Virus record (IMG/VR): IMGVR_UViG_3300042295_001683
Location: 1-64,000 of that record
DNA: 64,000 nucleotides
Strand: one strand, 5' to 3'
DNA from: a virus
In this document: piece by piece, positions 35,908 through 60,574 of the stretch
Layout of the letters: each line of letters opens with the position of its first letter
Numbering within the stretch: position 1 is the stretch's first letter
The notes under the pieces: model-generated
The model's database searches: none
Told to the model about the DNA's origin: nothing
What the model saw: the letters and a program-made list of their open reading frames with translations, nothing else
Translations under genes and position numbers: made by a program

Positions 35908-36159
35908 TTAAGAAATCTTGCTAGTATAAGTGCCGATCGCTGAATGGATCGGAAAAGTACAAATCACTGATTCCCCGATCAATACTTCTTTTGTACCTTG
36001 GTTGTAGGCTGTACGGATATCGCCATTAGCAAGCTGTACTTTATTAGCTCCCAAATAAGTTGCACTTACATTTCGTTGCGCGTCATCAATTGTGAGCTTT
36101 CGGTTGATAGCTAGCACTGAATCCATGAATGCTGTTGATAGTAAGTTTTCTATGCTCAT
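35908..36159 (-). CDS. Hypothetical virion-associated protein
   Basis: 83 aa, last gene of the distal tail operon. Beta-rich, few charges ('VSATYLGANKVQLANGDIRT'). Position suggests a fibre or baseplate accessory. No family recognised. Confidence 0.45.
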   Translation of the reverse strand: MSIENLLSTAFMDSVLAINRKLTIDDAQRNVSATYLGANKVQLANGDIRTAYNQGTKEVLIGESVICTFPIHSAIGTYTSKIS

Positions 36160-36162
36160 AGT

Positions 36163-36987
36163 TTAGCTAAAAGTAATACTGTTTATTTCGATGTTGACCC
36201 AAACTTCAAACGGGATAGCCCCGACAGCATAGGAACCTGTAAATATTTGAGGGCTTTCGGTCAAAGTTTCGTCAAAAGTCCAGTTAACAGGCGGGGTAGA
36301 TTCTTCGGGAAACCCTTCTATTTTTATATAGCCAGTAATGGTAGTTACAATTGCAAAAGTTGAAGCAGTTAACAAAGGACTTTCAGTGCCCAAACTTATT
36401 TGTACACCCCTTTCTAGCGTTATTTCTATAGATGTATTTTCAAAAGCGATCGCATATTTAAGATAGGGGATTGAATTTCTAAAAATAGCTTCCCCTGTAT
36501 ATGCGTAATCGATATTATCTGAGGATATTACCTCTTCGCGTTCGGTCACTGGGATATAATCACCCTCCAAATTATAGCCAGCACCTTGGATACTATCAAA
36601 ACCTGTTAGTGTACTCCCCCCTGTGTAGGTAATGAGGACTTCATAAAACAGCCCAAGGAAAAATGCAGGGATTATAATATCGGGTTCAGTAGCTGATACT
36701 GCTACCAACCTATTCCTAGCGTCAACTCTTTGCAGTCCGCCTTGCTTATTTTTTCGCAAATATACTCGCTCACCAATTGGTAAAGGCGCGTTGCAAATCA
36801 GTTTAAATCCGCTATTTATTTCGCCATTTATTGCCACTCGATCCGTGCCATCAATAGGATCAATTCCCTGATAAGTTGCAAATGGATTTAGTAGCCCGTC
36901 ACGCTTTTCTTTTGCGTATTGATTACGCAATCGGTCGATTTGTGATTGACTAGCATTGCCAGCTACTGCATCAAAAAAATCTGTCAT
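36163..36987 (-). CDS. Putative tail/fibre protein, paralogous N-terminus with the 36984 gene
   Basis: 274 aa. It starts 'MTDFFDAVAGNASQSQIDRL', resembling the neighbour 36984-37259 ('MPNFFTSVIASASQAQINRL'), so the two arose by duplication or share an attachment module. The rest is beta-rich with Gly/Thr, fitting a receptor-binding or fibre protein. Confidence 0.5.
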   Translation of the reverse strand: MTDFFDAVAGNASQSQIDRLRNQYAKEKRDGLLNPFATYQGIDPIDGTDRVAINGEINSGFKLICNAPLPIGERVYLRKNKQGGLQRVDARNRLVAVSATEPDIIIPAFFLGLFYEVLITYTGGSTLTGFDSIQGAGYNLEGDYIPVTEREEVISSDNIDYAYTGEAIFRNSIPYLKYAIAFENTSIEITLERGVQISLGTESPLLTASTFAIVTTITGYIKIEGFPEESTPPVNWTFDETLTESPQIFTGSYAVGAIPFEVWVNIEINSITFS

Positions 36988-37259
36988 TGTGGCGCTCTAA
37001 AGTCTGCAAAAGTTGTGTAACTATTTTTAGTAGTAGACAAAGAAACTTGCGACGGCGGCGCTCCAAAATTACCAAGATTGGCGGCTTGTATGCCGCCGTC
37101 AGCAGTCGTTACGATAAATTCACCTGTACTAGAATCAAACCCTGTTACCGAGCCAATCTGTATTGGTTGTGGTAAAGACGCTTTTTCGGATACAGATTTT
37201 AATCGATTGATTTGCGCTTGGGAGGCGCTTGCGATGACAGAAGTAAAAAAATTAGGCAT
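36984..37259 (-). CDS. Small tail-associated protein with the shared N-terminal module
   Basis: 91 aa, N-terminus similar to the 36163 gene; then 'GSVTGFDSSTGEFIVTTADG', a typical fibre-like beta stretch. ATGA overlap with the downstream gene and an 8-base overlap with the upstream one. Confidence 0.5.
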   Translation of the reverse strand: MPNFFTSVIASASQAQINRLKSVSEKASLPQPIQIGSVTGFDSSTGEFIVTTADGGIQAANLGNFGAPPSQVSLSTTKNSYTTFADFRAPQ

Positions 37260-38079
37260 TTCCTAAACTCACTTTAAAATTACCAGATGGAATAATTAGT
37301 TCTTGACCAACAGTAATATTTTGGGTTGACACTGAACTAAAAACAATTAGATTAGTGGAATCAAACAAAGCGACAGAATTAAAGCCAGTAGCAGCGGCGA
37401 TCGCATTGCCATAATTTATATTATTTACAACCTGAATTTGGCGAGTATTACCTACAGTGCTAATTGCAGACCATCCACTGCTAGGGATTGAGAATCTCCC
37501 GCCTGTAGCAACTGTAGCTGTAATTTCAGTAATAGTGCCATTGGTAGCAATCGCTGTTGCAAGCGCTAATTGATTGGATGTTGGCGCTGTACCTGCGCTT
37601 GATCCTTTTAACCAATTTAGTTGCAAGTCTCTGGCGTAAATACTCCAGAATAGAATATCCAAATCAATGACTATATTGCCAGACGCTCTCGAAACACTAT
37701 CGCCACTACCAAAACTTAGAAGCTCTGTTACTCCTAATGCGTTACGGAATGGGAACCCGCCTAAAAAATTACCACTGGTAGAAGCGTCCCAAAAACCAAA
37801 GAAAGGCAGATTGGAGCCAGCCGCGATCGATGTCCCAAAATTCAAAGATGCTGTGCTAACAATCCTTCGATTATTCCCTACAGTAGCAGGAGTGCTAAAG
37901 TTACTGGAAGTGTACGAAGCTCGACCGCTAAAGTAAGTACCTGTTACCTCATTTGCGCCTGTAAGAGCGGGATCGGCGCTGTGAATACTTGCGTATAAAG
38001 TAGTAGGGGCTGTACCCGCGTTGGTTCCCTTAAAATGATGATTAAGGAATTTGTCGATAAAGTAGCTGGAAAGTCCCAT
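37252..38079 (-). CDS. Tail fibre protein with two tandem domains
   Basis: 275 aa in two similar halves: each has a 'GTAPT' start, a '+VGN.R' turn and a 'NFGTSIAA' / 'NYGNAIAA' strand near the end. This is the pattern of duplicated phage fibre domains. The N-terminus 'MGLSSYFIDKFLNHHFKGT' would attach to the tail tip. No enzymatic motif. Confidence 0.6.
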   Translation of the reverse strand: MGLSSYFIDKFLNHHFKGTNAGTAPTTLYASIHSADPALTGANEVTGTYFSGRASYTSSNFSTPATVGNNRRIVSTASLNFGTSIAAGSNLPFFGFWDASTSGNFLGGFPFRNALGVTELLSFGSGDSVSRASGNIVIDLDILFWSIYARDLQLNWLKGSSAGTAPTSNQLALATAIATNGTITEITATVATGGRFSIPSSGWSAISTVGNTRQIQVVNNINYGNAIAAATGFNSVALFDSTNLIVFSSVSTQNITVGQELIIPSGNFKVSLGNA

Positions 38080-38089
38080 GATTTTTCAC

Positions 38090-39976
38090 CTATAAAGTAG
38101 CTAATCCGATCATTGTATTTGGCTTAATTGGATTGTAATTAATATACAAATCTGCTAAGCCGATCATTGTAGAAGGGGCGATCGGGTTGAAATTTATACG
38201 TAAATCTGCAAGCCCGATCATATTAAAATTGCCTAACGTAATCGCAACGGGGCGCGATATTACCGTAGGGGTGCTAGCGGGGGCTGTACCAACTTCGATA
38301 CCGTTAAAAACTAACCATGCTTCTGTCCCATTTAATCCCCATTTAATGCAATCTAATTTTAAGTAATAAATTAAATCTGCGTCTGTCACCGCTACATCCG
38401 CAAAAGGCTTAAAAGCACTACTTAAAGCTGTGTCAGTAATCGCGCCGCCAAATTGCTGACCATAAGCACGCCCTGATAATATGCGATTAAATCGAGAGCC
38501 ATAATCAACTAATTGAGACTGATCAACTGTGTAGGGTACATCTATTGTTCTTTGCCTTGGTCGGTACGGATCGGCGGCTAATTGCTGTGCAAATATTTCT
38601 GCTTTTAGCTGTACTTCTTCTGTAGTGTTTGTGCTTGCATCACCAAAATTTGTAGGTGGGCCAGACGTATCTTTATCGTCGCTAAAGTTTGCCGCTGTAA
38701 ATAGCACAGTAGGATTTTGATCGCCTAATGCCGTCCCTTTAAAAATTACTCCTGCTGGTTCATGTCGAGTATAAGTTTTAATCCATTTTTGCGATCCTGT
38801 GTTTACCCATTCATAATCTTCTCTTTTAGCCGTAATTAGTACTGAAGGATTTTGATCGCCAAAAGTAGTTCCTTTTATAATTACCCCTGCTGGTTGAAAA
38901 GATGTTACAGTTTGAGCCGTAACAATCCCATTGACAAGAGTATAAGTATTTATGGATTTGTCAGATATAAATAGCACAGTAGGATTTTGATCGCCTAATG
39001 CCGTCCCTTTAAAAAGTACCCCTGCTGGTTCGCGTGTTTCTATGGTTTTTTCAAAAAATGTTGAACTTATCTCTGATGTGGTTATTGTCCTTTTAGCCGT
39101 AAATAACGCGGTAGGATTTTGATCTCCAAAAGTAGTCCCTTTAAAAAGTACCCCTGCTGGCTGTGTGTCAATTACTTCGCTAGGTGCGGTGTCTACAGGT
39201 ATTATTTCTTTTACCGTACCTGTAACTATTAATTTTTCAATTGGTTGTTCTGCGATATCACCGATCGCGTCCCATAATTTTTCGTCAGAGCCAATTATAT
39301 AAGAAGCGATAGCACTGCCAGAATAGATGGCACTGATAGGCTCTGCGATTACCGTACCAGCGCTATTGCATCGCAAATAGTACCCTGCACTATCAGCGAT
39401 CGCCCCTGCAAATCCAATAAAATTACCAGTTTGCTTTGGCAGTGGATAGGCGATCGGATAGGGGATAGAGTCAATCGAATTAGCAACGTCGATATAGTTA
39501 AGGATATTTGTGATTACGGTATTTCTTGCTAATGGTGTACCCGCCGTAATACCAGATATATCTTGATTTGGTTCGGGTGGAAAATTCTCTAAAGCTAATC
39601 GACAGCCAATTTCCAAAGATAATTCTAATATGCCATCCATATTCCTTTTTGGTTTTTGAGGCATTTTTAGCAAATGCAAAGCTTGCCCACTACAAGGCAG
39701 ATAAGTAAGCGTTCCTGATGTATTTGCAGTTCGGATCGTGACTAGTTGACCCCGTTTCCATTGACTAGGGTTAAGTCTAGGATTAGGTGAACTTGGCACG
39801 GTTGAATCGTAGCGAGAAATTTTAAGATTAATGGAGCCTGTGACTGGCATTAATCCAGTCCCAACCTCATATTCTGGATAACCCAAAATTATTCCAGAAT
39901 CAAAGCTAATCCAGTTAGTCCAATTTTGCGATCCTATAATTAATTCGCATCTGCGAGATGAGAGATTAAGCGTCAT
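38090..39976 (-). CDS. Large tail protein with internal repeats
   Basis: 628 aa. The N-terminal 250 residues look like a distal-tail or tip domain ('NWTNWISFDSGIILGYPEYE'). Residues about 280-450 hold four copies of a 25-residue unit around 'GDQNP', and the C-terminus repeats 'MIGLADL' three times at about 18-residue spacing. The protein is probably a baseplate or tip subunit with an adhesive tail. It follows the tape measure and 40053 genes in tail order. Confidence 0.6.
   Translation of the reverse strand: MTLNLSSRRCELIIGSQNWTNWISFDSGIILGYPEYEVGTGLMPVTGSINLKISRYDSTVPSSPNPRLNPSQWKRGQLVTIRTANTSGTLTYLPCSGQALHLLKMPQKPKRNMDGILELSLEIGCRLALENFPPEPNQDISGITAGTPLARNTVITNILNYIDVANSIDSIPYPIAYPLPKQTGNFIGFAGAIADSAGYYLRCNSAGTVIAEPISAIYSGSAIASYIIGSDEKLWDAIGDIAEQPIEKLIVTGTVKEIIPVDTAPSEVIDTQPAGVLFKGTTFGDQNPTALFTAKRTITTSEISSTFFEKTIETREPAGVLFKGTALGDQNPTVLFISDKSINTYTLVNGIVTAQTVTSFQPAGVIIKGTTFGDQNPSVLITAKREDYEWVNTGSQKWIKTYTRHEPAGVIFKGTALGDQNPTVLFTAANFSDDKDTSGPPTNFGDASTNTTEEVQLKAEIFAQQLAADPYRPRQRTIDVPYTVDQSQLVDYGSRFNRILSGRAYGQQFGGAITDTALSSAFKPFADVAVTDADLIYYLKLDCIKWGLNGTEAWLVFNGIEVGTAPASTPTVISRPVAITLGNFNMIGLADLRINFNPIAPSTMIGLADLYINYNPIKPNTMIGLATL
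38690..39190. repeat. Four in-gene repeats in an A-B-A-B pattern
   Basis: A 45-base stretch at 38701-38745 is identical to 38971-39015, 270 bases away; two other diverged copies lie near 38843 and 39107, again about 265-270 bases apart. The repeats therefore arose by duplication of a two-repeat unit. Confidence 0.75.
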
Positions 39977-40056
39977 ACAGCTAACCCTCCATCAAATAAA
40001 GTTAGCTGCCCTTTTGGTGCTGCTTTTGGTTTTTTAGTTTTCACAGGTGCGATCAT
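39973..40056 (-). CDS. Very small coupled protein in the tail operon
   Basis: 27 aa ('MIAPVKTKKPKAAPKGQLTL' and a short end), with ATGA overlaps to both neighbours. Basic N-terminus. The double coupling makes translation likely, but the role is unknown. Confidence 0.4.
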   Translation of the reverse strand: MIAPVKTKKPKAAPKGQLTLFDGGLAV

Positions 40057-40784
40057 ATCTTAACCCCTGTCTCTTGCAACTCAAACACTGCCATCACATT
40101 ACCAACCCCCGTATCTGGGCTAAACGTTGGCTCAATAGGCATTTTTACCTGTAACTTAGGGTAATAATTTACCCCGCCGTTTCGCTGGAAGGGCGTGCCA
40201 ACAGATGAACGGGTTTTAGTTGACGATGTTTTCCCCTCTTCAAAATACAGTGTGATTTCGTCAGTCAACTCTAAGTATGGCGAACCTGTTAAAGTCTGAG
40301 CACGCCGTATATTATTAGCTGTAGACCACATTGCGCTTAACTTTAGTGAATCAGCGATACTAACTTTTGCTTGAATATTGTATTGTTGCGGATCTTCAAA
40401 ACTAATGCCCGTATCGATGAAATTTCCGTTTACGCTAAAAGTCCCATTTCCTGATAACCGAGAACTTTGGCGGGGCGGGGGAGAATCAGAACTAAAATTC
40501 CTGAATACAACACTCAGATAAACGCGGATCGAGTGCGTACCACTTCCACCGCTAAGACTTATAGCCGATCCCCCTTGCGTAGCTGACACGGTAATAGTCG
40601 AGCCTACACTCACGACATAATAGCTAGTATTAAGTGCTAGACCCGTTGGCAATGTGCCTGTGGTAGTAAAGCGCACGATATCGTCAACCGCAAATACTTG
40701 CGTGAATGGTGTTATGGCGCTACCACTAAAAGTAAAAGTATAGCTACGCCCAAAATATACGAGTGTTAAGTCGCCAACAGCCAT
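40053..40784 (-). CDS. Distal tail / virion protein
   Basis: 243 aa. The N-terminal third has an Ig-like or fibre-like repeat ('VDDIVRFTTTGTLPTGLALN' with 'YYVVSVGSTITVS'), and the remainder a beta-rich domain. Same strand and order as the tape measure gene on the other side of the island, so it probably belongs to the tail tip. No family recognised with confidence. Confidence 0.5.
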   Translation of the reverse strand: MAVGDLTLVYFGRSYTFTFSGSAITPFTQVFAVDDIVRFTTTGTLPTGLALNTSYYVVSVGSTITVSATQGGSAISLSGGSGTHSIRVYLSVVFRNFSSDSPPPRQSSRLSGNGTFSVNGNFIDTGISFEDPQQYNIQAKVSIADSLKLSAMWSTANNIRRAQTLTGSPYLELTDEITLYFEEGKTSSTKTRSSVGTPFQRNGGVNYYPKLQVKMPIEPTFSPDTGVGNVMAVFELQETGVKI

Positions 40785-40834
40785 GAGTGAGTTAGGGGAT
40801 TTTGATTAATTATCGCACATCACAAAAATAGTAC

Positions 40835-40864
40835 TTGACAAATAATATTAGTGTGTAGTATATT
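40835..40864 (+). promoter_or_regulatory. Sigma-70-type promoter, start of the accessory island
   Basis: TTGACA followed after 18 bases by TATATT (17 to GTATAT). The first 17 bases, TACTTGACAAATAATATT, are shared with the promoters at 42057 and 42494. It drives the plus-strand genes from 40946. Confidence 0.65.
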
Positions 40865-40945
40865 GATTTACATCAGGACACAACACACCCGCAAACGCCG
40901 CAACCTGATAGCGGTACTCAGTTAAAGAGGGGCTGAGAGAAAGAA

Positions 40946-41473
40946 ATGGGATGGATTCACGCAGGTAACAGTGAAAGCACTAGTGATGGCGGTGCTGGCT
41001 ACACAAGAAACGCGGCGGCTGTCCGTGACATCGTGAAACATCACGATGTTGACGAGAAAACAGCATGGGCGCTAGTAGCTTTGTTTTCGTGGCAGAAAAA
41101 CACCACGATCCCTGATCAGGTGGCAGACAGTGACTATGTAAGAAAGTGGATCGAATTCCCCTACTTTCAGGCTTTTCTTCCCGTATTTTTGAAATACGGA
41201 TGGACTTCCAATGTCGAAAGATTCTTGGAGTCGTGGATATACCACAATCAGGATTTCCATCAACTGATGGAAAAGTACTTCCCTGAGATCGCTGCACCCG
41301 CCCCCGCACCTGTTCAATCTGAATGGGTTGACTATGAGGCTTTGTACGAAGCAAAGCACAATGTCAACCTCCGCGACAAAGCGGAAAATGACGAAAACTG
41401 GTACATGAATGAAGTGTACCCCCTTAGTCTAAAAGATTGGGCTAAGGTGCAACTAGAAGCAGTTAGCTTTTAG
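40946..41473 (+). CDS. Hypothetical protein, first gene of the island
   Basis: 175 aa. 'VDEKTAWALVALFSWQKNTT' and a Pro/Ala linker near residue 118 separate two helical parts. No recognised family. Confidence 0.5.
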   Translation: MGWIHAGNSESTSDGGAGYTRNAAAVRDIVKHHDVDEKTAWALVALFSWQKNTTIPDQVADSDYVRKWIEFPYFQAFLPVFLKYGWTSNVERFLESWIYHNQDFHQLMEKYFPEIAAPAPAPVQSEWVDYEALYEAKHNVNLRDKAENDENWYMNEVYPLSLKDWAKVQLEAVSF

Positions 41474-41481
41474 GCTAGGCA

Positions 41482-41673
41482 ATGGTAAACCGACCTGTAG
41501 GCAGACCGCGAAGTAGCGATCGCATCAGGAAACAATTTTTGCTTACTCAAAAGCACATTGATATTCTTGAGGCAATCGCTATAAAACAGACTCTTGTAAC
41601 CTCGCAAGGTTCTTATAAAGGTCAGCCAAATATCAACGCGGCGATCATTTGGTTGATTGAAAATTATCAATAA
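41482..41673 (+). CDS. Small DNA-binding-like protein, paralog of 43303
   Basis: 63 aa. The N-terminus 'NRPVGRPRSSDR' (an AT-hook-like Gly-Arg-Pro arm) is shared with the 64-aa product at 43303-43497, as is the C-terminal layout ending in 'KGQPNINAAI' / 'KGEPNISGWL'. Ribbon-helix-helix regulators of this size are common on plasmids. Confidence 0.5.
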   Translation: MVNRPVGRPRSSDRIRKQFLLTQKHIDILEAIAIKQTLVTSQGSYKGQPNINAAIIWLIENYQ

Positions 41674-41735
41674 AAAAGAGTTCATTCAAGGTTAAACATA
41701 TAAAAAGTATGTAGTTCTATTTGGAGATTAAAATT

Positions 41736-41966
41736 ATGACTAAGATTGAAGTTGTTGAAGCGATTAACCAAGCATCTAAAGCTTGGGAGGATGACTACGA
41801 AGCAATGAAAGCTTTGTTTATTCCAGTGTTTAACTTCATCAAGAGCGATGTAGACTTCCGCTCGTTTGTCCCTTGGTATCACAACTACTTCTCTAACAAC
41901 AGAGAGGTCAATGACACTACTGTTGTCAAGTTCATGACTATGACAGCAGCGGTTCACGAGTGCTAA
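41736..41966 (+). CDS. Cassette protein 1 (shared N-terminus)
   Basis: 76 aa from the ATG at 41736 behind TTGGAG. The first 18 residues ('MTKIEVVEAINQASKAWED') are nearly the same as in the 42122 gene, after which the proteins differ completely. This mosaic points to recombination between cassettes. Function unknown. Confidence 0.5.
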   Translation: MTKIEVVEAINQASKAWEDDYEAMKALFIPVFNFIKSDVDFRSFVPWYHNYFSNNREVNDTTVVKFMTMTAAVHEC

Positions 41967-42003
41967 CCCATTACCCAATAGTCTAGCCATAGTGCTACGT
42001 TAT

Positions 42004-42029
42004 AAGGCGATCGCGCGATCGCCTTTTTT
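42004..42029 (+). terminator. Terminator of cassette 1
   Basis: AAGGCGATCG-CGCGATCGCCTT, an almost uninterrupted HIP1-based stem, followed by TTTTTT. Confidence 0.85.
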
Positions 42030-42056
42030 GTTGGATAAATTAGTTGTAAATAGTAC

Positions 42057-42085
42057 TTGACAAATAATATTTAAGCGTTTAATAT
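42057..42085 (+). promoter_or_regulatory. Promoter of cassette 2
   Basis: TTGACA, 17 bases, TAATAT, then a leader with TTCAAGGTTAAACATA and an AAAGGAG ribosome-binding site. Confidence 0.75.
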
Positions 42086-42121
42086 TATATTCAAGGTTAA
42101 ACATACAAAAGGAGCAAGACC

Positions 42122-42400
42122 ATGACTAAGATTGAAGTTATTGAAGCGATTAACCAAGCATCTAAAGCTTGGGAAGATGTATACTATATTGTTGTCTGTC
42201 GATACATGACAAATAGGAAATACGGGGGCTTAGTAAGAACTTACAGCTATTTTTACGAAGGCCCGTCACTAGAAAGAGCTTTTGTAAATGCACAAGATGC
42301 GTTTAAGGAAAGAGATGCAAAGGTTACTTTAGTGACGCTATCTCATGCCAATTCTTTTCTTGGGGTAGAAACCGAACTAAGCAAAGAAGCTGTTGTCTAA
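42122..42400 (+). CDS. Cassette protein 2 (shared N-terminus)
   Basis: 92 aa, AAGGAG upstream. N-terminal 18 residues match cassette protein 1; the remainder is a different alpha/beta domain ('GGLVRTYSYFYEGPSLERAF'). Function unknown. Confidence 0.5.
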   Translation: MTKIEVIEAINQASKAWEDVYYIVVCRYMTNRKYGGLVRTYSYFYEGPSLERAFVNAQDAFKERDAKVTLVTLSHANSFLGVETELSKEAVV

Positions 42401-42440
42401 CAGATCATTACCCAATAGTCTAGCCATAGTGCTACGTTAT

Positions 42441-42466
42441 AAGGCGATCGCGCGATCGCCTTTTTT
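42441..42466 (+). terminator. Terminator of cassette 2
   Basis: Identical to the terminator at 42004-42029, with a HIP1-based stem and six T. Confidence 0.85.
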
Positions 42467-42493
42467 GTTGGATAAATTAGTTGTAAATAGTAC

Positions 42494-42522
42494 TTGACAA
42501 ATAATATTTAAGCGTTTAATAT
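42494..42522 (+). promoter_or_regulatory. Promoter of cassette 3
   Basis: Identical to 42057-42085: TTGACA, 17 bases, TAATAT. Confidence 0.75.
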
Positions 42523-42563
42523 TATATTCAAGGTTAAATATACAAAAAACAAAGGACAAACAA

Positions 42564-42776
42564 ATGACAAAAAAATTGTTCGGGTATTGGGAAGAAGACA
42601 TGGATGGGAGCACTTGCGGATACTTCGTAGTATCCGCATACCAACCAGAATTTTTTGCAGATTGCGAAGAAAATTTTAACGATGAGCATGAGCTTGTCGG
42701 AGCGTGGTGTGACAGCCATGCTTTGAAAACCAGGATCAAAGATCTTGGTTTGGATTTGGAAGTTTCAGAGGATTAA
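42564..42776 (+). CDS. Cassette protein 3
   Basis: 70 aa, acidic, with three Cys ('GYWEEDMDGSTCGYFVV'). It is expressed from the third copy-type promoter and does not share the N-terminal module of cassettes 1 and 2. Function unknown. Confidence 0.5.
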   Translation: MTKKLFGYWEEDMDGSTCGYFVVSAYQPEFFADCEENFNDEHELVGAWCDSHALKTRIKDLGLDLEVSED

Positions 42777-42787
42777 GGTAAAAAAAT

Positions 42788-43306
42788 ATGTACGCATTTG
42801 ACAGAGACGGAGTATTGGTGGGTGAGCTAGGCAATTTCGCTGCCAGTCACCCGAAAAACTACAAGGGCGCTGAGATGCCCCTTATCAAAGAGGTGCTAGC
42901 CAAAGTACCGCCTCATTCGATCATTATCAGTAATCAAGCTGGCATTGATCGCGGCTATACCACACTCAAAGTGGTACAAGCTCAATTTGATTGGCTCATG
43001 GCGCAGCAGCCTAATTTTATCGGGGCTTTCTTTTGCCCTGATGAAGGGGAAAGTTGCTGGTTTAAGTTTTTTTGGGCAGACGAATGGACAGAGCAGTTAG
43101 CGATTGCCCCATACTTCAGAAAGCCTAATATAGGCTTGGGAGACTCCGCCAACGTGTATCTAAATCATTATGGGCTTGGCCAGATCACCCATTACATAGG
43201 AGATCTTTCTGGCAACCCCGCCTATGCTGAGGGTAGAGACAGCGATCGCATCTTTGCGCAAAATCTGGGCTGTGAGTATTTGGATGTGAATGATTTTTTA
43301 GCTTGA
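42788..43306 (+). CDS. HAD-superfamily phosphatase, PNKP 3'-phosphatase-like
   Basis: 172 aa. 'FDRDGVLVGE' is HAD motif I (Asp-x-Asp), 'IIISNQAGIDRG' motif II, and 'IGDLSGNPAYAEGRDSDRIF' carries the acidic motif with the Gly-Arg-Asp-x-Asp-Arg signature of polynucleotide 3'-phosphatases. It would clean 3' ends in DNA or RNA repair. No kinase or ligase lies beside it. Confidence 0.65.
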   Translation: MYAFDRDGVLVGELGNFAASHPKNYKGAEMPLIKEVLAKVPPHSIIISNQAGIDRGYTTLKVVQAQFDWLMAQQPNFIGAFFCPDEGESCWFKFFWADEWTEQLAIAPYFRKPNIGLGDSANVYLNHYGLGQITHYIGDLSGNPAYAEGRDSDRIFAQNLGCEYLDVNDFLA

Positions 43307-43497
43307 GCCTACAGGAACGCCGCCCTGTAGGCAGACCACGAAGTAGTGATCACTATGCTCAATTAAATTTACGTTTGCCAATGGCAATAATTGAGAAGAT
43401 GAGAGCGATCGCCCTATCTGAAGGATTTATCACTCAGATAGGCAAGCACAAAGGAGAGCCAAATATTAGCGGATGGCTCTCTAATAAATATAAGTAG
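43303..43497 (+). CDS. Small DNA-binding-like protein, paralog of 41482
   Basis: 64 aa with the 'RRPVGRPRSSDH' arm and an RHH-like core ('LNLRLPMAIIEKMRAIA'). Overlaps the HAD gene by 4 bases. Probably a regulator. Confidence 0.55.
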   Translation: MSLQERRPVGRPRSSDHYAQLNLRLPMAIIEKMRAIALSEGFITQIGKHKGEPNISGWLSNKYK

Positions 43498-43507
43498 CTC
43501 CTCTCTA

Positions 43508-43597
43508 TGCTATATTTTGATTGCGTTAAAAATTTGGCTGATCTAGATCCTAAGGAGCTAAGGAGAACCGAAAAGCTAAGATTTGTGGATTTGTAAT
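43508..43597 (+). CDS. Possible 29-aa peptide
   Basis: Begins 'MLYFDCVKNLADLDPKELRR' with a weak CTCCTCT-type upstream region. No overlap supports it. Weak call. Confidence 0.2.
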
Positions 43598-43613
43598 GAT
43601 TTTTTGAGAGTTT

Positions 43614-43641
43614 GAAGGCGATCGCGAGGTCGTCTTTTTTT
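43614..43641 (+). terminator. Weaker terminator
   Basis: AAGGCGA and TCGTCTT form a 7-bp stem with one G-U pair, followed by a seven-base T-run; a degenerate relative of the cassette terminators. Confidence 0.55.
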
Positions 43642-43668
43642 GTGGGTAAAATTATTTTTAAAACATGG

Positions 43669-43697
43669 TTGACATTACTAACGTAATCAACTATATT
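43669..43697 (+). promoter_or_regulatory. Promoter of the 43739 gene
   Basis: TTGACA, 17 bases, TATATT; the leader (ACACATCAGGAAAACGCAACACGC) resembles that of 40946. Confidence 0.75.
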
Positions 43698-43738
43698 TAA
43701 ACACATCAGGAAAACGCAACACGCAAGGAAACAAAGCA

Positions 43739-44179
43739 ATGACTACACTACTAGGAATCACAGATGAGAATTTAGGTTGCGCTTGCTGCGGTCGTACGGA
43801 TTTAAAGCGTTATGCAGTTATTCAAGATAATGAAGGCGAAATTGCTACTTACGGTAGTGACTGCGCTACAAAAATCTTAGGTAGAAAAATTTCTACTCAA
43901 AGAAATCTACCTAAGATTCAAACTGAAGACATCAAAAACATTACTCCTTTTGTAGAAGTAACTGTTTATAAAATGCATATCAGCCGACGTTACAACTTTG
44001 TAACCCGAAGCTATGAATGGGGATTAACCCTTCCTGTCAGCCCTAAACAAGTTTTAAAAACACTCAAAGAAGACTACGAATATTACGTTGAAGAGAATAT
44101 TCAAAACCGTCCCCTTGATGCTATTAAAACTGCCATTAATCTTTTAACTGAATACACGACTCAATATGCCCAAACCTAA
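43739..44179 (+). CDS. Zinc-finger-like protein
   Basis: 146 aa. 'GCACCGRTDLKRYAVIQ' with 'YGSDCATKIL' gives a treble-clef-like Cys set seen in several phage proteins that bind nucleic acid. The rest is helical. Overlaps the next gene by 14 bases. Confidence 0.55.
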   Translation: MTTLLGITDENLGCACCGRTDLKRYAVIQDNEGEIATYGSDCATKILGRKISTQRNLPKIQTEDIKNITPFVEVTVYKMHISRRYNFVTRSYEWGLTLPVSPKQVLKTLKEDYEYYVEENIQNRPLDAIKTAINLLTEYTTQYAQT

Positions 44180-44387
44180 CCCCGCAAACCCATACCATTG
44201 CGATCGCCCTATGCGTCGCAATGGTAAACAAGCCAAGTCAGGGGCAGTGCAATATCGCTGCAAATGTGGCTTTACCTGTACCGATGGCGATCGCCCCGCA
44301 CACCGCCCCCTATTAGGTGATGCGCCTTTGACGCAAGTTGAGCGTAATCGTAGGTATAGAGCTAAGAAGAAAGCTAATTTAAATTAG
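44166..44387 (+). CDS. Zinc-ribbon protein, paralog of 59127
   Basis: 73 aa. 'CDRPMRRNGKQAKSGAVQYR' then 'CKCGFTC' parallels the 59127-59396 product ('KPMCFNGTKSSGAKQYRCR'), including the 'GD.P' and 'RYR' blocks. The N-terminal half resembles the zinc ribbon of InsA-type transposition proteins. No transposase is linked to it. Confidence 0.55.
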   Translation: MPKPNPANPYHCDRPMRRNGKQAKSGAVQYRCKCGFTCTDGDRPAHRPLLGDAPLTQVERNRRYRAKKKANLN

Positions 44388-44400
44388 TTGCAAATAGTAG

Positions 44401-44429
44401 TTGACAAATACAGGATATCGATCAATAAT
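44401..44429 (+). promoter_or_regulatory. Promoter of the 44463 gene
   Basis: TTGACA, 17 bases, AATAAT; closely related, including leader, to the promoter at 11845-11873 on the other strand. Confidence 0.75.
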
Positions 44430-44462
44430 AGATCGTTGAGTTAAACAAGCAAGGCAAAAACA

Positions 44463-44783
44463 ATGACACATTCTTTAGATGAAAAACAACCAACTCTTGA
44501 CAAGCTTATTGCAAGCCATCCAATGTTTGAGGAGCTAAAAACTATTATTGATTCTTTGATCTCAACTCGATATAAAAAAGTTAGAAAACTAGCTGGTCAA
44601 TCGTGGAAAGGCTACAGGTCAAATGCTCAGTATTTGAGTGAAGTCACTAAAAACAACAATCTTGGCAATAAAATTGCTGCTATGCAACGTCAAATCTTGG
44701 TTGATATTGATTTACTAGATGAAACTGGTTTTGCGTTTTTTAGAAACTATTCTGTTGACTGGGATAAAGTTAGAGCTTGGTAA
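44463..44783 (+). CDS. Hypothetical protein
   Basis: 106 aa, helical and basic in the middle. First gene behind the 44401 promoter. Function unknown. Confidence 0.5.
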   Translation: MTHSLDEKQPTLDKLIASHPMFEELKTIIDSLISTRYKKVRKLAGQSWKGYRSNAQYLSEVTKNNNLGNKIAAMQRQILVDIDLLDETGFAFFRNYSVDWDKVRAW

Positions 44784-44784
44784 T

Positions 44785-44997
44785 ATGCCTAAATCACGCA
44801 CCGAAATCTATCGCGATTGCTATCTCAAGCGTACAGCAGACAAACTCCGCTACTACTGTACGCAATGCGATCGCCAACTCAGATCAGACTCACCTCTCAC
44901 TATTTGCCGCGCCTGTTGGCTTAAAACGGATGATGGCAAGCTATACATGCGACTGAAGCAAGCGGAATCAAGAGCTAAAAAAGTAGTAAAATATTAA
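44785..44997 (+). CDS. Small zinc-ribbon protein
   Basis: 70 aa from the ATG at 44785 (TAATATG junction). 'YYCTQCDRQLRSDSPLTICR' with 'CRACW' gives two Cys pairs for zinc. Basic C-terminal helix. Probably binds nucleic acid. Confidence 0.55.
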   Translation: MPKSRTEIYRDCYLKRTADKLRYYCTQCDRQLRSDSPLTICRACWLKTDDGKLYMRLKQAESRAKKVVKY

Positions 44998-45058
44998 TGC
45001 GATCGCGGATGCTAGTCCCGATCGCGTGATCAACCTTATCCATTAATCGCAGGTCAAT

Positions 45059-45919
45059 ATGACAAGTTTAACTCAATTTGCATTTAATTCTCAACAGGTT
45101 CGTATTGTTTCCATTAATAACGAGCCTTGGTTTGTCGCTCAGGACGTATGTGACATTTTAGATATAAGGAATGTCAGCAAGGCTTGTAACCCATTAAAAG
45201 ATCGCGAAAAGCAAGTTTTAAATTTGCATGAGATGGGTATAACTTCAAGTGATGATCCAGACACCACAAGGCTTTTAGCGGTTTCAGAGTCTGGTTTGTA
45301 CCGCTTAACCATGAAATCTCGCAAACCTCAAGCTGAACCTTTTCAGGATTGGGTATGTGAGCAAATCTTGCCAATCATCCGCAAAACTGGCAAGTATGAG
45401 TTAGCCCCATCTCAACCCGCACTACCTCAAAACTATATTGAGGCTCTAGAGGCACATCTACAATCTGAGAAAGATAAAAAGGTACTTGCTGAAGCTAACC
45501 AGAAATTGATCGCCGCCAATCAATCCCTAGAAATCGAAGTACAGACTTTAGAACCAAAAGTCGATCGCTATGATTTGATTTTGGCTACCGATGGATGGAT
45601 GACTGGGGAAGAGATTGTTAAGCAGTTGAATATTTCCAAGTTTTCTGTTCGCAAGCTTTACGACATTTTGCGTAAGGAGAAAGTACTATTTAATAGCGAT
45701 GGCACTAATTTACCTTATGCCAGTTGGCAAAATGAAGGGCTTGCTACGATTCGTGATGGTCAATGTTTTGATGGACGCATGAGATTTAGCCCTGTATTCT
45801 CTTGGAAGGGATTGGATCGCATTCTTGACCTATTGCGTAAACATCAAGTTATCCCAAGGGATAAGCAGTATCGATTTAACTTTGATTCTGACAAAATCGT
45901 AGCGATGAAGAGGGCTTAG
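45059..45919 (+). CDS. BRO-N / antirepressor protein
   Basis: 286 aa. N-terminal BRO-N domain ('VRIVSINNEPWFVAQDVCDI', 'LLAVSESGLYRLTMKSRKP', 'WVCEQILPIIRKTGKY'), a coiled-coil linker (about 125-165), and a C-terminal KilAC/ANT-like DNA-binding part ('MTGEEIVKQLNISKFSVRKL'). Such proteins antagonise phage repressors. It lies upstream of the CRISPR array. Confidence 0.8.
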   Translation: MTSLTQFAFNSQQVRIVSINNEPWFVAQDVCDILDIRNVSKACNPLKDREKQVLNLHEMGITSSDDPDTTRLLAVSESGLYRLTMKSRKPQAEPFQDWVCEQILPIIRKTGKYELAPSQPALPQNYIEALEAHLQSEKDKKVLAEANQKLIAANQSLEIEVQTLEPKVDRYDLILATDGWMTGEEIVKQLNISKFSVRKLYDILRKEKVLFNSDGTNLPYASWQNEGLATIRDGQCFDGRMRFSPVFSWKGLDRILDLLRKHQVIPRDKQYRFNFDSDKIVAMKRA

Positions 45920-45921
45920 TT

Positions 45922-46557
45922 ATGTTTGACAAAGTTTACACAACTGAAGAGCTAACTAAAATTCTAGAAATAGAGAGAATGGCTTGCGTCAAAGGTCAGG
46001 GCACATTCCCTATGCCTGATAATGCCGATGAAATTGCAAAGCAAACACCACTAGGCTCTATTTTGGGGGCGCAAAGATTATTTGAGGTTGGTTGTTATCA
46101 TGAGTTTCGCGATCAAGTTCAAAAGTATCAAATTGAAAATAATATTTCTGGGCTTGAAGTTGATGTTTGTATTATTGGTGACAAGCTCTATAGATTCCCT
46201 ATCCCTGTCTGCCAATTAGAGCTAACTAAGGATGATTACCAAGTCTTGAAGTTAGCCAAAGACGCTGTAGTTGACGCATTCCTTAGTGCTGTTGATGAGC
46301 TTACCTATTTGAGCTTTAGCCATGAAGACAAATCTCATGCTCAATTTGATATCGAAACTACAAGCCAATATATTAGACACCTTTCTGAGTTTTGCGACTG
46401 GGCAGAAATTACAGTCGCTAAAGAATTTGAAATAACTCTTGTTCTTGGCTATGGTGATTATCACGAATCTGCATATATTGCTGAGCATTCAGAAGCTGCA
46501 AAATATTCTGATTCTATGTATTTCTGTGCTGCTAAAGCTTGCAAAATTAACGGGTAA
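45922..46557 (+). CDS. Hypothetical protein
   Basis: 211 aa, acidic, no recognised motif; two bases behind the antirepressor gene. The N-terminal 'EIERMACVKGQGTFPMPDN' may be a short conserved phage element. Its end faces the CRISPR array 56 bases away. Confidence 0.5.
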   Translation: MFDKVYTTEELTKILEIERMACVKGQGTFPMPDNADEIAKQTPLGSILGAQRLFEVGCYHEFRDQVQKYQIENNISGLEVDVCIIGDKLYRFPIPVCQLELTKDDYQVLKLAKDAVVDAFLSAVDELTYLSFSHEDKSHAQFDIETTSQYIRHLSEFCDWAEITVAKEFEITLVLGYGDYHESAYIAEHSEAAKYSDSMYFCAAKACKING

Positions 46558-46614
46558 ACCAATGTCTATCAAAATCAAATTCTCTTTGTTGCCTGAGTTG
46601 AGAAGAGCATATGC

Positions 46615-46915
46615 TTCCAATCAGCCGATCACTTAACCAGAAGTTTCACCACTATCGCCTCTCTTCCAATCAGCCGATCGCTTAACCAAAAGTTTCACCA
46701 TTCTGAGTTTCCAAAAATTGCAAATAACCTTGCCTTCCAATCAATTGATCGTCTAACCACTAGTTTCACCATGAACTAGAGCGCCGCTTTACAGCCTGTA
46801 TCGGTACTTCCAATCAGCCGATCGCTTAACCAAAAGTTTCACTGGACAAAATGACAATTTTATATGTCAGCTACCTTCCTTCCAATCAGCCGATCGCTTA
46901 ACCAGAAGTTTCACC
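46615..46915 (-). CRISPR. CRISPR array, 5 repeats and 4 spacers
   Basis: Five 36-base repeats at 46615-46650, 46664-46699, 46735-46770, 46808-46843 and 46880-46915, written on + as TTCCAATCAGCCGATCGCTT followed by a segment ending in GTTTCACC. Spacers are 13, 35, 37 and 36 bases. Against the last copy, R1 and R2 have one change, R4 two, and R3 about seven. A C precedes most repeats. The effector gene lies on the minus strand and runs straight into the repeat at 46880-46915, so that is probably the first repeat and transcription goes leftward. No AT-rich leader separates gene and array. Confidence 0.88.
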
Positions 46916-48643
46916 TAACAGATCCCAAAAACCAAGCTGAGAGCCAATATTAGGATCGATTTGCGCGGATCGCTTACGAGATTGCAATTTAGAGTCGGCT
47001 TTAGATAGTGATTTTAAATCTTGCCATAGCTCAAAGTCTTGTGGTGATTGGTTTTCAGAGTTTGCGCGAGTGGTTAGGTTGCGATCTAGCTGTAAATCAT
47101 TGTCTGGTAAGGGCTTAAGCTTATCAGCTTCCAATCTTTTATCAGTACTATTTACAGCCCCGCTTTCGCGGTTGATTGCGGGAGTTGTTTCTCCTCCCGA
47201 TCCTTTCTTACTCTTGCGAGTCTTACTCGGTTGGCGCTTCTTCCCATGCGTTGCATGATCCACGCCCTTAAATTCCCCCGATGAAGCGGGGTATGGTATC
47301 AGTACCAAGCCTTTAAAAGCAACATTACGGATAACGGTTGAGGCGTTGTTATCTGCGTTGTCACCATGACCACAATTCAAGCATTTAAAAACAGCTTGAG
47401 ATGGTCGAAACTTTTCGGAATAGTAGCCACACTGAGAGCAACCTTGAGAAGTGTGCGGTGCGGGTACTTTCACAAATATTCTTTCTGATGCTTTAGATTT
47501 AGTCTCTAGCATCGTCTTTGTTTTACCGATCGCCACATCATGAAGCGATTTATTTAAACCAGCTTTAGCAGCCGATCCGTTGGGTAGAAAAGCGCCATTT
47601 TCACCAGCTTTCGCCTTTGGTGCGCGTACCATATTTTTAACTTTGGTATCTTCAATGGCGATGCTTTGATATTCACTTACATATTTTGAAGTGAGCTTAT
47701 GGATAAAGCGATCCCTTTGCCTAGCGATTTTAAGATGCGCTTTAGCTAGTTTAGAGCGTTTAGCTTTTAGCCTGTTAGAGCCATCTTTTGAGCGAGAGAT
47801 AGAGCGCTGAATACGAGCTAATTTCTTAGCTTGCATCTTTGCGTAACGCTTAGATTTGTGTAGTCTCCCATCACTATCTGCAATAGGAGCGACTACACCA
47901 AAATCTAAACCTACTTCTTGCTTTTTTGCTGGTTTAACGGGCTTTACATCTACCGTGCTAGTGAATTGCACATAATAACCATCAGCTTTTTGGACGATGC
48001 GTACAATCGTATGATTGCCAGCATAGCGACGGTAGAATCCCTTGCATTTGATTTGTCCTAGTCTTGGATAATCAATTAATGCATTGTCATTACCCAAGGG
48101 CAAAATATTAACGTATATCCGACCGTTGCCATTAGAAAAGCTTTCTAATTTATCAGCTTTCTTTTTGTAACGTGGTCTGCCTTTTTTTCCCTTGCGGTAC
48201 TGAGTCCATGCATCAATTAGGTTATCCACAACAGATCGCCGTGATTCGCCATCAATAGAGTGTAGAAAATCAGGACACCGCATATTAGCGATAAAGCGAT
48301 AATTTTTAACGTGCTTAAATGGCTCTTCAATATCCCGATGTTTGCGGATGTCGCATTTATCAGGATAGTAAGCACAGCAAAGCCCGTATTGATTATCAGG
48401 ATTTACATACTCAATCCCGTCGATTTTGCATGATTTTCGCCATTGCCATACTTCAGGACTATACTCTGCCCATTCTTGTTTTGCCCTCCAATAACGTTGC
48501 TGATCTTCCTCAAGCAGACTTAAACCAACATTCCATACCCATTTAAGTTGAGTAAGCCACAAATCAATTTGTGTGCTTTGCTCAATCGTGGGAGACAACT
48601 TAAATTCAGTTATCTTTTTAGTAGTGGCTTCATTGCTAGTCAT
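46898..48643 (-). CDS. cas12: Compact Cas12/TnpB-like RNA-guided nuclease (type V-U-like)
   Basis: 581 aa, between TnpB (about 400) and large Cas12. The N-terminus 'FKLSPTIEQSTQIDLWLTQL' is TnpB-like. RuvC-I 'GLDFGVVAPIADSDG' (Asp247), RuvC-II 'SIAIEDTKVKNM' (Glu331), a zinc finger with Cys402/405/421/424 and RuvC-III 'DNADNNAS' (Asp431) are all intact, so DNA cleavage is expected to be possible. About 140 extra residues follow RuvC-III. From memory it is nearest to cyanobacterial V-U2-type (C2c8) or TnpB proteins. The last 18 bases are CRISPR repeat sequence. No TnpA or Cas1/Cas2 is seen. Confidence 0.8.
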   Translation of the reverse strand: MTSNEATTKKITEFKLSPTIEQSTQIDLWLTQLKWVWNVGLSLLEEDQQRYWRAKQEWAEYSPEVWQWRKSCKIDGIEYVNPDNQYGLCCAYYPDKCDIRKHRDIEEPFKHVKNYRFIANMRCPDFLHSIDGESRRSVVDNLIDAWTQYRKGKKGRPRYKKKADKLESFSNGNGRIYVNILPLGNDNALIDYPRLGQIKCKGFYRRYAGNHTIVRIVQKADGYYVQFTSTVDVKPVKPAKKQEVGLDFGVVAPIADSDGRLHKSKRYAKMQAKKLARIQRSISRSKDGSNRLKAKRSKLAKAHLKIARQRDRFIHKLTSKYVSEYQSIAIEDTKVKNMVRAPKAKAGENGAFLPNGSAAKAGLNKSLHDVAIGKTKTMLETKSKASERIFVKVPAPHTSQGCSQCGYYSEKFRPSQAVFKCLNCGHGDNADNNASTVIRNVAFKGLVLIPYPASSGEFKGVDHATHGKKRQPSKTRKSKKGSGGETTPAINRESGAVNSTDKRLEADKLKPLPDNDLQLDRNLTTRANSENQSPQDFELWQDLKSLSKADSKLQSRKRSAQIDPNIGSQLGFWDLLGETSG

Positions 48644-48649
48644 ATACTG

Positions 48650-48679
48650 ATAGTATCATAGTATTGATACTATTGACAA
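48650..48679 (-). promoter_or_regulatory. Promoter of the Cas12-like gene
   Basis: On the minus strand TTGTCA, an 18-base spacer and TACTAT. The inverted repeat ATAGTAT-CA-ATACTAT (48658-48673 on +: ATAGTATTGATACTAT) fills the spacer. The start codon at 48643 is only about 7 bases past the -10, so the transcript may be leaderless. Confidence 0.6.
48658..48673. promoter_or_regulatory. Operator-like inverted repeat between effector and regulator
   Basis: ATAGTATTGATACTAT has 7-bp arms around TT/GA. Its core TAGTA-N4-TACTA recurs exactly at 59071-59084 and 60478-60491, and in a degraded form at 60909-60922, always within a promoter spacer or touching the -10. Confidence 0.65.
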
Positions 48680-48701
48680 GCTTTTAATACAAGCTTTTAA
48701 T
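48673..48701 (+). promoter_or_regulatory. Promoter of the HTH regulator
   Basis: TTGACA, 17 bases, TTTAAT. The ATG at 48708 is about 7 bases beyond the -10, so the message may be leaderless, as for the divergent effector gene. Confidence 0.6.
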
Positions 48702-48707
48702 TGTGAT

Positions 48708-48917
48708 ATGGCTTTAAGAAATATAGTTAAAGAATTTCTGGAAGAAAGAAAAATAACCGCTTATCAGTTCGTCAAAGAAACGGGGATAAGCGGTACAACT
48801 GGCTATGAGTTAGCGCGTAACCCTTGGCATATACCATCTACAGGCTCAATCGCTAAAATCTGCGATACCTACAAAATTCAACCATCTGAAATTGTTGTTT
48901 GGGTAGGGAATGAATAA
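48708..48917 (+). CDS. HTH regulator divergent from the Cas12-like gene
   Basis: 69 aa XRE-type HTH: 'LEERKITAYQFVKETGISGT' and 'PSTGSIAKICDTYKIQPSEI'. It shares a 64-base control region containing the inverted repeat with the effector gene. The layout recalls CvkR-type repressors next to cas12k, although that protein is of another family. Likely represses the effector and itself. Confidence 0.72.
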   Translation: MALRNIVKEFLEERKITAYQFVKETGISGTTGYELARNPWHIPSTGSIAKICDTYKIQPSEIVVWVGNE

Positions 48918-48987
48918 CAGCCGCATAAGCTAAAATCATGAAGCAAGGTTAAACACTATCTTTAGCGTTGAGTCAGCCCCTTGCAAC

Positions 48988-57895: not shown

Positions 57896-58312
57896 TTACT
57901 TACCCTTCAAATGCTTGCTTAACTCAATTTTAGCGCGTTCTTTCGTCTCTGGACTCATGCCTAAAAACCGCCGCGCCTCATTGGCATATGCAAAGTACCG
58001 TTTAGCCTCACCAGTGACGCTGATCCGATAACTTCTGTCATCGCTTGATATTACTGTTATTCCTTTACGCATCGCATCAGTACGCCGCAAAATCGTAAGG
58101 AACGCGCCAATTAAGCGCTTGTGTGCGATGTACTTAGCGCTGAGTGTTTTCCACGCCGCACCCGTATTAGGATCGCCACCCTCACGAATAATATTATCTT
58201 GCAGTGCAACCACATGATCCGCGCTGACAGTCTTTATCACAGGCTCTATGTTTTGCAGCTTGGATAGGAGCTTAGCGGCGATCGGTGTGTTGGGCAGGGT
58301 GAATTTAAGCAT
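57896..58312 (-). CDS. Phage virion morphogenesis / tail completion protein (Mu gpG / P2 gpS-like)
   Basis: 138 aa. 'GAAWKTLSAKYIAHKRLIGA', 'ILRRTDAMRKGITV' and 'YANEARRFLGMSPETKERAK' reproduce the pattern of the tail completion family (PF05069): a Trp-x-x-Leu-Ser block, a Leu-x-Arg-Thr block and a Phe-Leu-Gly-Met end. Expected to act at the neck or tail end during assembly. Confidence 0.7.
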   Translation of the reverse strand: MLKFTLPNTPIAAKLLSKLQNIEPVIKTVSADHVVALQDNIIREGGDPNTGAAWKTLSAKYIAHKRLIGAFLTILRRTDAMRKGITVISSDDRSYRISVTGEAKRYFAYANEARRFLGMSPETKERAKIELSKHLKGK

Positions 58313-58321
58313 AATGGCAAC

Positions 58322-58355
58322 AAAAAGCGCTTACGGTGTATTGTAAGCGCTTTTT
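58322..58355. terminator. Bidirectional terminator
   Basis: AAAAAGCGCTTAC and GTAAGCGCTTTTT, a perfect 13-bp stem around an 8-base loop. Confidence 0.88.
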
Positions 58356-58375
58356 AGCTTTGGTTTCTGAAGATG

Positions 58376-58726
58376 CTATTCGTTAGTGAGTAAATCGTTT
58401 AGTAAATCAAGGCAGTCTCTAGTGACGATCCTGTTAACTCGATCATTTATATCTGGCAATCTATCTGAGATCCCAAAATCGTGAATCCTAGAAACTACGG
58501 AAGCTCTAGCTTTTTTAAGCTCGTCATTACAATTAGGGCTGGTCAAAACATCTTCTCTAAGATACCTGCCAAGCCTTTGACATTCACAGAAAGCCATCGC
58601 TTTAAGAATCTGTTCATCTTGCAGGCATCCAACAGAAAAATCTGTCATAGCTTGCATATATTTGTCATAGTGGCGTTTGTATCGAGACTCAAAATATTCA
58701 ATGTGTTCAAGTGATTGAGTTTCCAT
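58376..58726 (-). CDS. Hypothetical helical protein
   Basis: 116 aa, helical, with three Cys and many charges ('HIEYFESRYKRHYDKYMQAM'). No motif. Stands between a terminator and a TAGTA-regulated gene. Confidence 0.45.
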   Translation of the reverse strand: METQSLEHIEYFESRYKRHYDKYMQAMTDFSVGCLQDEQILKAMAFCECQRLGRYLREDVLTSPNCNDELKKARASVVSRIHDFGISDRLPDINDRVNRIVTRDCLDLLNDLLTNE

Positions 58727-58749
58727 CGTGTTACTTTCCTTTGTTTTGT

Positions 58750-59040
58750 CTATTTAGCTTTACGAGCCGTTGTCATTTCGCCACCTGCGATAAGTGGCTG
58801 TGCATTCTGCACCTCATCAAAATAGCTGATGCAGTCGCCATCCTCAAAGTCTACCGTCACAGTCACGATTTCGGTGAAGTAGAACTCAAAGCCATCTGCT
58901 TGGCTGCCTGAGTACTCAAAGTTCTTGACATTTGGTGACAAGCTTTTAGCCAGTGCGATCGCCGATGGCTTGTCAGCTAGATCGGGGTGTGTTTCGCTGT
59001 CCCATGCGTGATTAAAGTAGCAGTTAATTTGTGTTTGCAT
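58750..59040 (-). CDS. Hypothetical protein, TAGTA-regulon gene 1
   Basis: 96 aa, acidic ('MQTQINCYFNHAWDSETHPD'). Transcribed from the promoter at 59070-59099, whose leader ends GGAGTAAACGACA-ATG, as at two other genes. Function unknown. Confidence 0.55.
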   Translation of the reverse strand: MQTQINCYFNHAWDSETHPDLADKPSAIALAKSLSPNVKNFEYSGSQADGFEFYFTEIVTVTVDFEDGDCISYFDEVQNAQPLIAGGEMTTARKAK

Positions 59041-59069
59041 TGTCGTTTACTCCTTTGTCTATACGAGTA

Positions 59070-59099
59070 ATAGTATCAGTACTAGACGAAAGATGTCAA
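59070..59099 (-). promoter_or_regulatory. TAGTA-type promoter 1
   Basis: On the minus strand TTGACA, 18 bases, TACTAT. TAGTACTGATACTA (minus) overlaps the -10. The leader continues to AAAGGAGTAAACGAC directly before the ATG. Confidence 0.75.
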
Positions 59100-59126
59100 G
59101 ATATTTGTAATATTTGTTTACAATTA

Positions 59127-59396
59127 CTACTCACCTTTAGTTTTTGGCTTGTACTTATGCACTTCCTTATACTTCTCAGGATGTGCCAATCGATAACGCA
59201 AATCATACTCAGCCTGACTCATGGGCTTATCGCCTATTGTTTGACCGCCACGCTTGCGATCGCTGTCAGTCATGGTGACTGTTTTTCCTTCAGGAGTGAG
59301 ACAGCCACGCCTACAGCGATATTGTTTCGCTCCTGATGATTTTGTACCGTTAAAGCACATTGGTTTATGGCAGTAGGGGCAGTCTGGGTTAGGCAT
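59127..59396 (-). CDS. Zinc-ribbon protein, paralog of 44166
   Basis: 89 aa. 'CPYCHKPMCFNGTKSSGAKQ' and 'YRCRRGC' form an InsA-like zinc ribbon; a basic tail rich in Lys/Tyr follows. Related to the 44166-44387 product. Probably binds DNA. Confidence 0.55.
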   Translation of the reverse strand: MPNPDCPYCHKPMCFNGTKSSGAKQYRCRRGCLTPEGKTVTMTDSDRKRGGQTIGDKPMSQAEYDLRYRLAHPEKYKEVHKYKPKTKGE

Positions 59397-60127: not shown

Positions 60128-60194
60128 CGTCGTTACCTTTGTGAATGTTAGTTGAGAGAGGGTCGCAACTCCCTCGTTTGCGCGGGTGTGTCGG

Positions 60195-60440: not shown

Positions 60441-60476
60441 GGTCGTTTACTCCTTTGTTTTGTCTGTATGAATAAA

Positions 60477-60506: not shown

Positions 60507-60574
60507 TAGGGTAAGCAAATTATTTTTTAGAATGTTAGTTGAATGAGGGGCGGTTAAGCCCCTGATGTGTAATA

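Follow-up and report, generated by a model that had tools for sequence, protein, structure and literature searches.

In the window analysed here, which is bases 1–64000 of a 73,403-base virus record, three small genes on the plus strand are separated by two copies of the same intergenic module. Gene1 (41736–41966, 76 aa), gene2 (42122–42400, 92 aa) and gene3 (42564–42776, 70 aa) alternate with a 142-nt direct repeat, M, whose plus-strand copies A (41969–42110) and B (42406–42547) lie 437 nt apart from start to start and are 99% identical, the single mismatch being C/T at 42102/42539. The preliminary description had reported a 142-base module in two near-identical copies 437 bases apart, and this is borne out; chance cannot account for a repeat of this length with a single mismatch. 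M starts 3–6 nt past the stop of the upstream gene and ends 11–16 nt short of the next start codon; it is the entire intergenic region less each gene's own ribosome-binding stretch.

The terminator, promoter and leader that the same description had read into M were all recovered as predicted features. The terminator consists of a plus-strand hairpin, AAGGCGATCGC-GCGATCGCCTT (42004–42025 in copy A, with the HIP1-type stem GCGATCGC; 42441–42462 in copy B), with a T run behind it. Its stem has the form GGCGATC-GCGC-GATCGCC, and the hairpin has a computed stability of −15 kcal/mol (z −3.2), equalled in 0 of 200 shuffles. A TTGACA promoter-like site lies inside M, and a 22-nt leader, ATTCAAGGTTAAACATATAAAA, stands at the right end of both copies and once more 5′ of gene1 (41684–41705, plus strand). 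Partial relatives of M occur within the window at 40826, 43615 and 44380.

Gene1 and gene2 match over 58–63 nt counted from exactly the ATG, with 19 of 21 residues identical, and nowhere beyond; the earlier statement that they share their first 18 codons and then differ was about right. The spacer 5′ of the gene2 ATG differs from that of gene1. Gene2 is probably a real gene, since its own frame scores best of the six by the phage's codon usage. Pfam and PHROGs gave no convincing family for gene1, gene2 or gene3, and the body of gene2 had no relatives in anything searched (viral contigs, genome contigs and phages). The structure models (pLDDT 67 for gene1 and 52.5 for gene2) are both too weak for a fold search; they suggest a first helix common to both proteins, after which gene1 continues in helices and gene2 has a strand-helix-strand body. 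Gene2 may have come by the first 20 codons of gene1 through leader-to-leader duplication and subsequent replacement of the body, or as an imported allele that already started in this way. It is improbable, in our estimation, that the common ~20 residues are a portable N-terminal tag, folded as the predicted helix, with payloads captured as translational fusions; at the same long odds, the constant part (promoter, leader and tag) would extend beyond the start codon and the payload domains would be unrelated. The targeting peptide common to the internal head proteins of T4 is a parallel for such a tag.

The record encodes a tape-measure protein, DnaB and a RecT/Bet-type protein, and beyond the window a terminase and a portal, which match PHROG 2 and 145 (the NCBIfam PBSX terminase match is below its cut-off). 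The virus family probably infects cyanobacteria, as the DNA is rich in HIP1 (79 sites in the window), an element that many cyanobacteria over-represent (PMC3219970). The part of that paper available to us ties HIP1 to RNA polymerase peaks and not to terminator stems. On the minus strand of the window lie Type IV-like CRISPR effector genes and a CysH-like protein (11989–15978; Csf2/Cas7 4e-43, Csf3/Cas5 4.9e-47, Cas11 5.7e-13, Cas6 3.2e-35), and a crude exact-repeat scan of the window found no CRISPR array. The same strand encodes a 581-aa TnpB/Cas12f-like protein (46898–48643; PADLOC Cas12u2 1.9e-104, Pfam OrfB_IS605), in a stretch (about 46560–48927) with no DNA match in contig G001. The minus-strand ORFs at 23204–24115 and 23278–23940 include a C-5 cytosine methylase gene (Pfam 6.6e-40) and, overlapping it in a different frame, a long ORF that on inspection by eye looks like the C-terminal part of a methylase, possibly through a frameshift. 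A 628-aa protein (38090–39976, minus strand) has internal repeats of PAGVLFKGTTFGDQNP-like units, with cross-matching repeats in the related contig L011.

A relative with a single module

L011 (IMGVR_UViG_3300008266_014111, 14.2 kb) aligns with the window at ~95% on both sides and reads gene1-M-gene3, with an identical gene1, a single M followed directly by gene3, and no gene2, such that precisely one gene2+M unit distinguishes the two arrangements. An impression that gene1 is unusually conserved between the two was dropped, as other 200-nt stretches are equally clean. The M of L011 shows several differences from the window copies, which differ from each other by 1 nt; on that account the two copies would have arisen, or been homogenised, in the window lineage after the split from L011. 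Alternatively, gene2 may have been lost from L011 through recombination between M copies.

The exact-core scan of viral contigs found the promoter 21-mer in two contigs and the 26-mer in one, and the M core occurs in one other viral contig, as a single copy with the same neighbours (gene3 behind). A search of 50,697 phage and 72,556 plasmid records did not find the M core; the only counterpart with other cargo is a distant one in L013, a terminator-promoter block that is 76% identical over ~95 nt and is followed by other genes and then by a HAD gene. (By eye, the intergenic stretch L013:8940–9270, between cargo genes, contains tRNA-like T-arm sequences.) According to the preliminary description, a module unique to this genome would imply a single tandem duplication; with M missing from the phage and plasmid records and present, beside the same neighbours, in that other viral contig, such a duplication may still account for the M pair.

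Considered on their own, the two M copies might have come from duplication in place, one gene body having been replaced. One tandem duplication of gene1+M, through unequal crossing-over between the 22-nt leaders with the second body later replaced or scrambled, would suit the leader motif on both sides of the gene1-M unit, the single-copy state of L011, where the leaders lie at about 9950 and 10355 (~405 nt apart), and the searches, which turned up neither M nor gene2 beside other partners. Such a history would nevertheless still need a replacement, given that the gene2 body is unrelated to gene1 and the spacer is different, and the neighbouring slots change cargo repeatedly under constant borders; we consider it unlikely. 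An assembly artefact, in which two population variants were joined at M in a metagenome contig, is more improbable still. The 142 nt of M do correspond to a short-read length and gene2 is present in the window contig only, but the M copies differ from each other by one base and both differ from the copy in L011, the stacking geometry recurs at another slot in L011 and L037, and a mis-join would still require a genome with gene2 followed by M.

The three genes belong to a longer plus-strand block (40823–43505) with the order promoter P40825, 175-aa gene, RPVGRPRSSD gene, gene1-M-gene2-M-gene3, HAD gene and RPVGRPRSSD gene. It is carried only by the window and L011 among the contigs compared and is absent from L031, L033, G001, L037 and L038, which read straight across from the tail-side gene to the terminator border T43600; to judge from these alignments, the entire block is an insertion. 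P40825 (40826–40864, plus strand; TTGACA-18-TATATT) belongs to the same promoter family as M. It recurs in G001 (41 nt, 97.6%) at another place, near the tape-measure gene, where it heads a different, 241-aa gene, and L038 and L039 have a similar promoter site. No relatives of the HAD protein were found in genome contigs. The two small genes with an RPVGRPRSSD start (41482–41673 and 43303–43497) are related to each other, the second with a weak Arc-like match; a relative follows the cargo in G001, and in L013 the HAD gene has behind it a reading frame that looks similar by eye.

Changing cargo at the neighbouring borders

Scanning viral contigs with the MPKPN protein (73 aa) retrieved 12 related contigs in which two sister borders downstream of the block could be followed. 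(The gene for this zinc-ribbon-like protein has an in-frame insertion of ~87 nt, or 29–30 residues, in the six contigs L037–L042.) The terminator T43600 (43600–43660, plus strand) is kept in 12 of the 12, with differing cargo behind it, and the promoter P44380 (44376–44462, plus strand) is kept in 11; a 31-nt stretch of P44380 also occurs in M, with an identity of 94% in the window and of 97% in several relatives. For border and cargo identities, 12 of 13 contigs were used at P44380 (L042 was dropped, with no matching promoter) and nine of 13 at T43600 (L036, L040, L041 and L042 were dropped, having no clear adjoining first gene or no promoter). Both slots hold five cargo families. At P44380, mean identity over the 54 different-cargo pairs is 0.914 for the border and 0.459 for the initial 150 nt of cargo; at T43600 the values over 29 such pairs are 0.920 and 0.495, with random 150-mers of the window at 0.373 ± 0.161 as control for cargo identity. 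L031/L033 and L040/L041 are near-copies, and independent cases are fewer than these counts.

The P44380 cargo is MTHSL in the window, L011 and L037, MTNVI + MTIKW in L031–L033, MTNTT + MTIKW in L035, MTILK + MDINI in L036 and MKTLQ + MHKSL in L038–L041. Behind T43600 stand MTTLLG, MTLKQ, MKTLLAQ, MTKAD + MLLTT, MLLTT alone and others, or none (L040 and L041). When 19 cargo proteins were compared by BLASTP, the sole match below E 0.1 was between gene1 and gene2, over their first 21 residues.

Two relatives carry an additional unit at the terminator slot. In L011, a T-promoter-MKTLLAQ-MDINI unit that ends with a truncated MPKSR gene precedes a second T, behind which stands MTTLLG, the window-type cargo; L037 is organised alike, with MATLTEV behind the second T (the last ~100 residues of MATLTEV match the window ORF 20035–20367, at 58%). 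This stacking of a cassette between two T copies has the geometry of gene2 between the M copies. MDINI followed by MPKSR is also the cargo of the P44380 slot in L036, and since the same pair sits in the T unit of L011 and L037, cargo has moved between slots. The joint before the second T lies inside the MPKSR gene in L011, and likewise inside a gene in L037, in both cases with no visible homology, pointing to illegitimate joining at that end; hence not all joints are made at borders.

The preliminary description had proposed a cassette system in which small ORFs are exchanged under constant signals. Constant borders with swapped small ORFs are what T43600 and P44380 present in 12–13 contigs, L011 lacks exactly the gene2+M unit, and two relatives stack a cassette between T copies; for M itself, the contigs and records compared do not support the proposal. 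Against exchange at M stands the same gene3 behind M in the sole relative with the module, and against a junction at the border stand the 58 nt shared by gene1 and gene2, which lie inside the ORF, and the different spacers upstream.

Homology breaks at promoters bear on whether the borders are themselves used. The window contains 17 strict promoter sites (TTGACA-16/18-TATAAT-like), where 6.5 ± 3.3 are expected under a Markov control that reproduces nearest-neighbour composition only. Homology to G001 ends at most 80 nt downstream of eight of the 17, with 1.0 expected, and a fraction of 0.0002 of 5000 circular shifts reaches the observed coincidence; two of the eight break-linked promoters are inside or at the ends of ORFs (29016, and 44497, which has its break in common with 44401). 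In a gene-based control, a break lies near the start in seven of eight promoter-bearing genes and in 10 of 45 others (Fisher one-sided p 0.0008). The looser consensus scan of 36000–47000 gave no excess over shuffles for either promoters (32 versus 27.2 ± 5.2) or terminators (8 versus 9.0 ± 3.1). The enrichment supports use of the borders, short of proof: breaks at gene starts are common in phage mosaics generally, and the first genes of transcripts may swap more for other reasons. Elsewhere in the window (58300–61600, minus strand), a 56-nt promoter block occurs three times (59069, 60476 and 60907) before different small genes and forms a second, independent family of reiterated promoter borders with the same layout.

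It may instead be solely the need of each early gene for a terminator and a strong promoter that keeps the blocks, and ordinary border mosaicism, with illegitimate joints sorted by selection, would then look alike with the borders having no role in exchange. We hold this to be possible though rather unlikely: it agrees with the joint of illegitimate type that precedes the second T of L011 and with the start breaks in 10 of 45 genes that have no promoter, whereas the 24–31 nt common to different slots extend beyond the −35/−10 hexamers alone and breaks are enriched at promoter-bearing genes.

Proposed cassette exchange and known parallels

We favour, with a probability of roughly 0.6, the reading that M belongs to a set of related terminator-promoter blocks and that recombination inside such blocks swaps, adds or loses cargo. 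In this family of cyanophage-like viruses, the blocks would lie between short accessory genes that are transcribed individually, each block putatively terminating one transcript and initiating the next. With near-identical borders, recombination within the blocks could exchange the gene between them and leave the signals intact. After the split from L011, one such event in the window lineage, presumably with a donor that carried gene2, would have placed two M copies around this gene. That identical borders promote exchange, as first proposed, we infer from the positions of the breakpoints.

The likely process would be single-strand annealing by the phage's RecT/Bet, the partners being either co-infecting relatives or copies within a single genome. 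The candidate agent of such short-homology exchange is a RecT/Bet-type single-strand annealing protein (24860–25768, minus strand; Pfam RecT 2.3e-31, PHROG 2780 4.5e-65, NCBIfam bet_lambda above cut-off). Rad52-like recombinases, with Red-beta and RecT among their number, are reported to drive a phage mosaicism that is homology-based and tolerant of divergence, and to create mosaics at diverged homologies in temperate E. coli phages (PMC3945230). The present case resembles this relaxed recombination in that a RecT/Bet is encoded and exchange would have taken place at short, diverged homologies, as read here from sequence.

The closest known system is that of the PeSLs (promoter early stem-loops) of T4-like phages, reportedly described by Arbiol in 2010 and Comeau in 2014. 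Like PeSLs, M is a composite of promoter and stem-loop terminator, related copies occur several times per genome (M twice, plus the partial relatives), and the blocks mark the boundaries between small-gene modules that are shuffled, with varying cargo and breaks enriched at promoters. Unlike PeSLs, the promoters here are of the TTGACA sigma-70 type and not T4 early promoters, the terminator stem is a HIP1 octamer, and the phage is of ~73 kb with a RecT/Bet. The blocks are PeSL-like in working and are not filed as PeSLs, as the promoter type differs and kinship with T4 is not established. PeSL-mediated shuffling is reported for T4-like phages, and the same source considers the PeSL route improbable in the case of the S-PM2 cyanophage's ORFan region (PMC4503421); in the accessible parts of PMC4177764, PMC5931544 and PMC5348500, PeSL work appears as references only. 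T4-like cyanophages have mobile gene cassettes near tRNAs and endonucleases (PMC3037559).

A second comparison is with morons, and here gene2+M, with its own predicted signals and its absence from L011, is like the units of lambdoid phages. A moron is a small accessory gene that brings a promoter and a terminator of its own, and that some relatives have and others lack. In contrast to morons, the signals here are common to neighbouring units and recur at several slots, and cargo changes under the same signals. The present case was not found in the literature covered on HIP1 terminators, cyanophage cassettes, PeSLs, morons and Rad52-like recombinases, which included few subscription papers.

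Our results suggest that promoter-terminator exchange borders of the kind found in T4-like phages also exist in an unrelated-looking cyanophage family, and that in this family the highly repeated HIP1 octamer of the host serves as a terminator stem. The window versus L011, and L036 versus L011 and L037, are natural before-and-after pairs that allow the gain of genes under constant regulation to be put in order.
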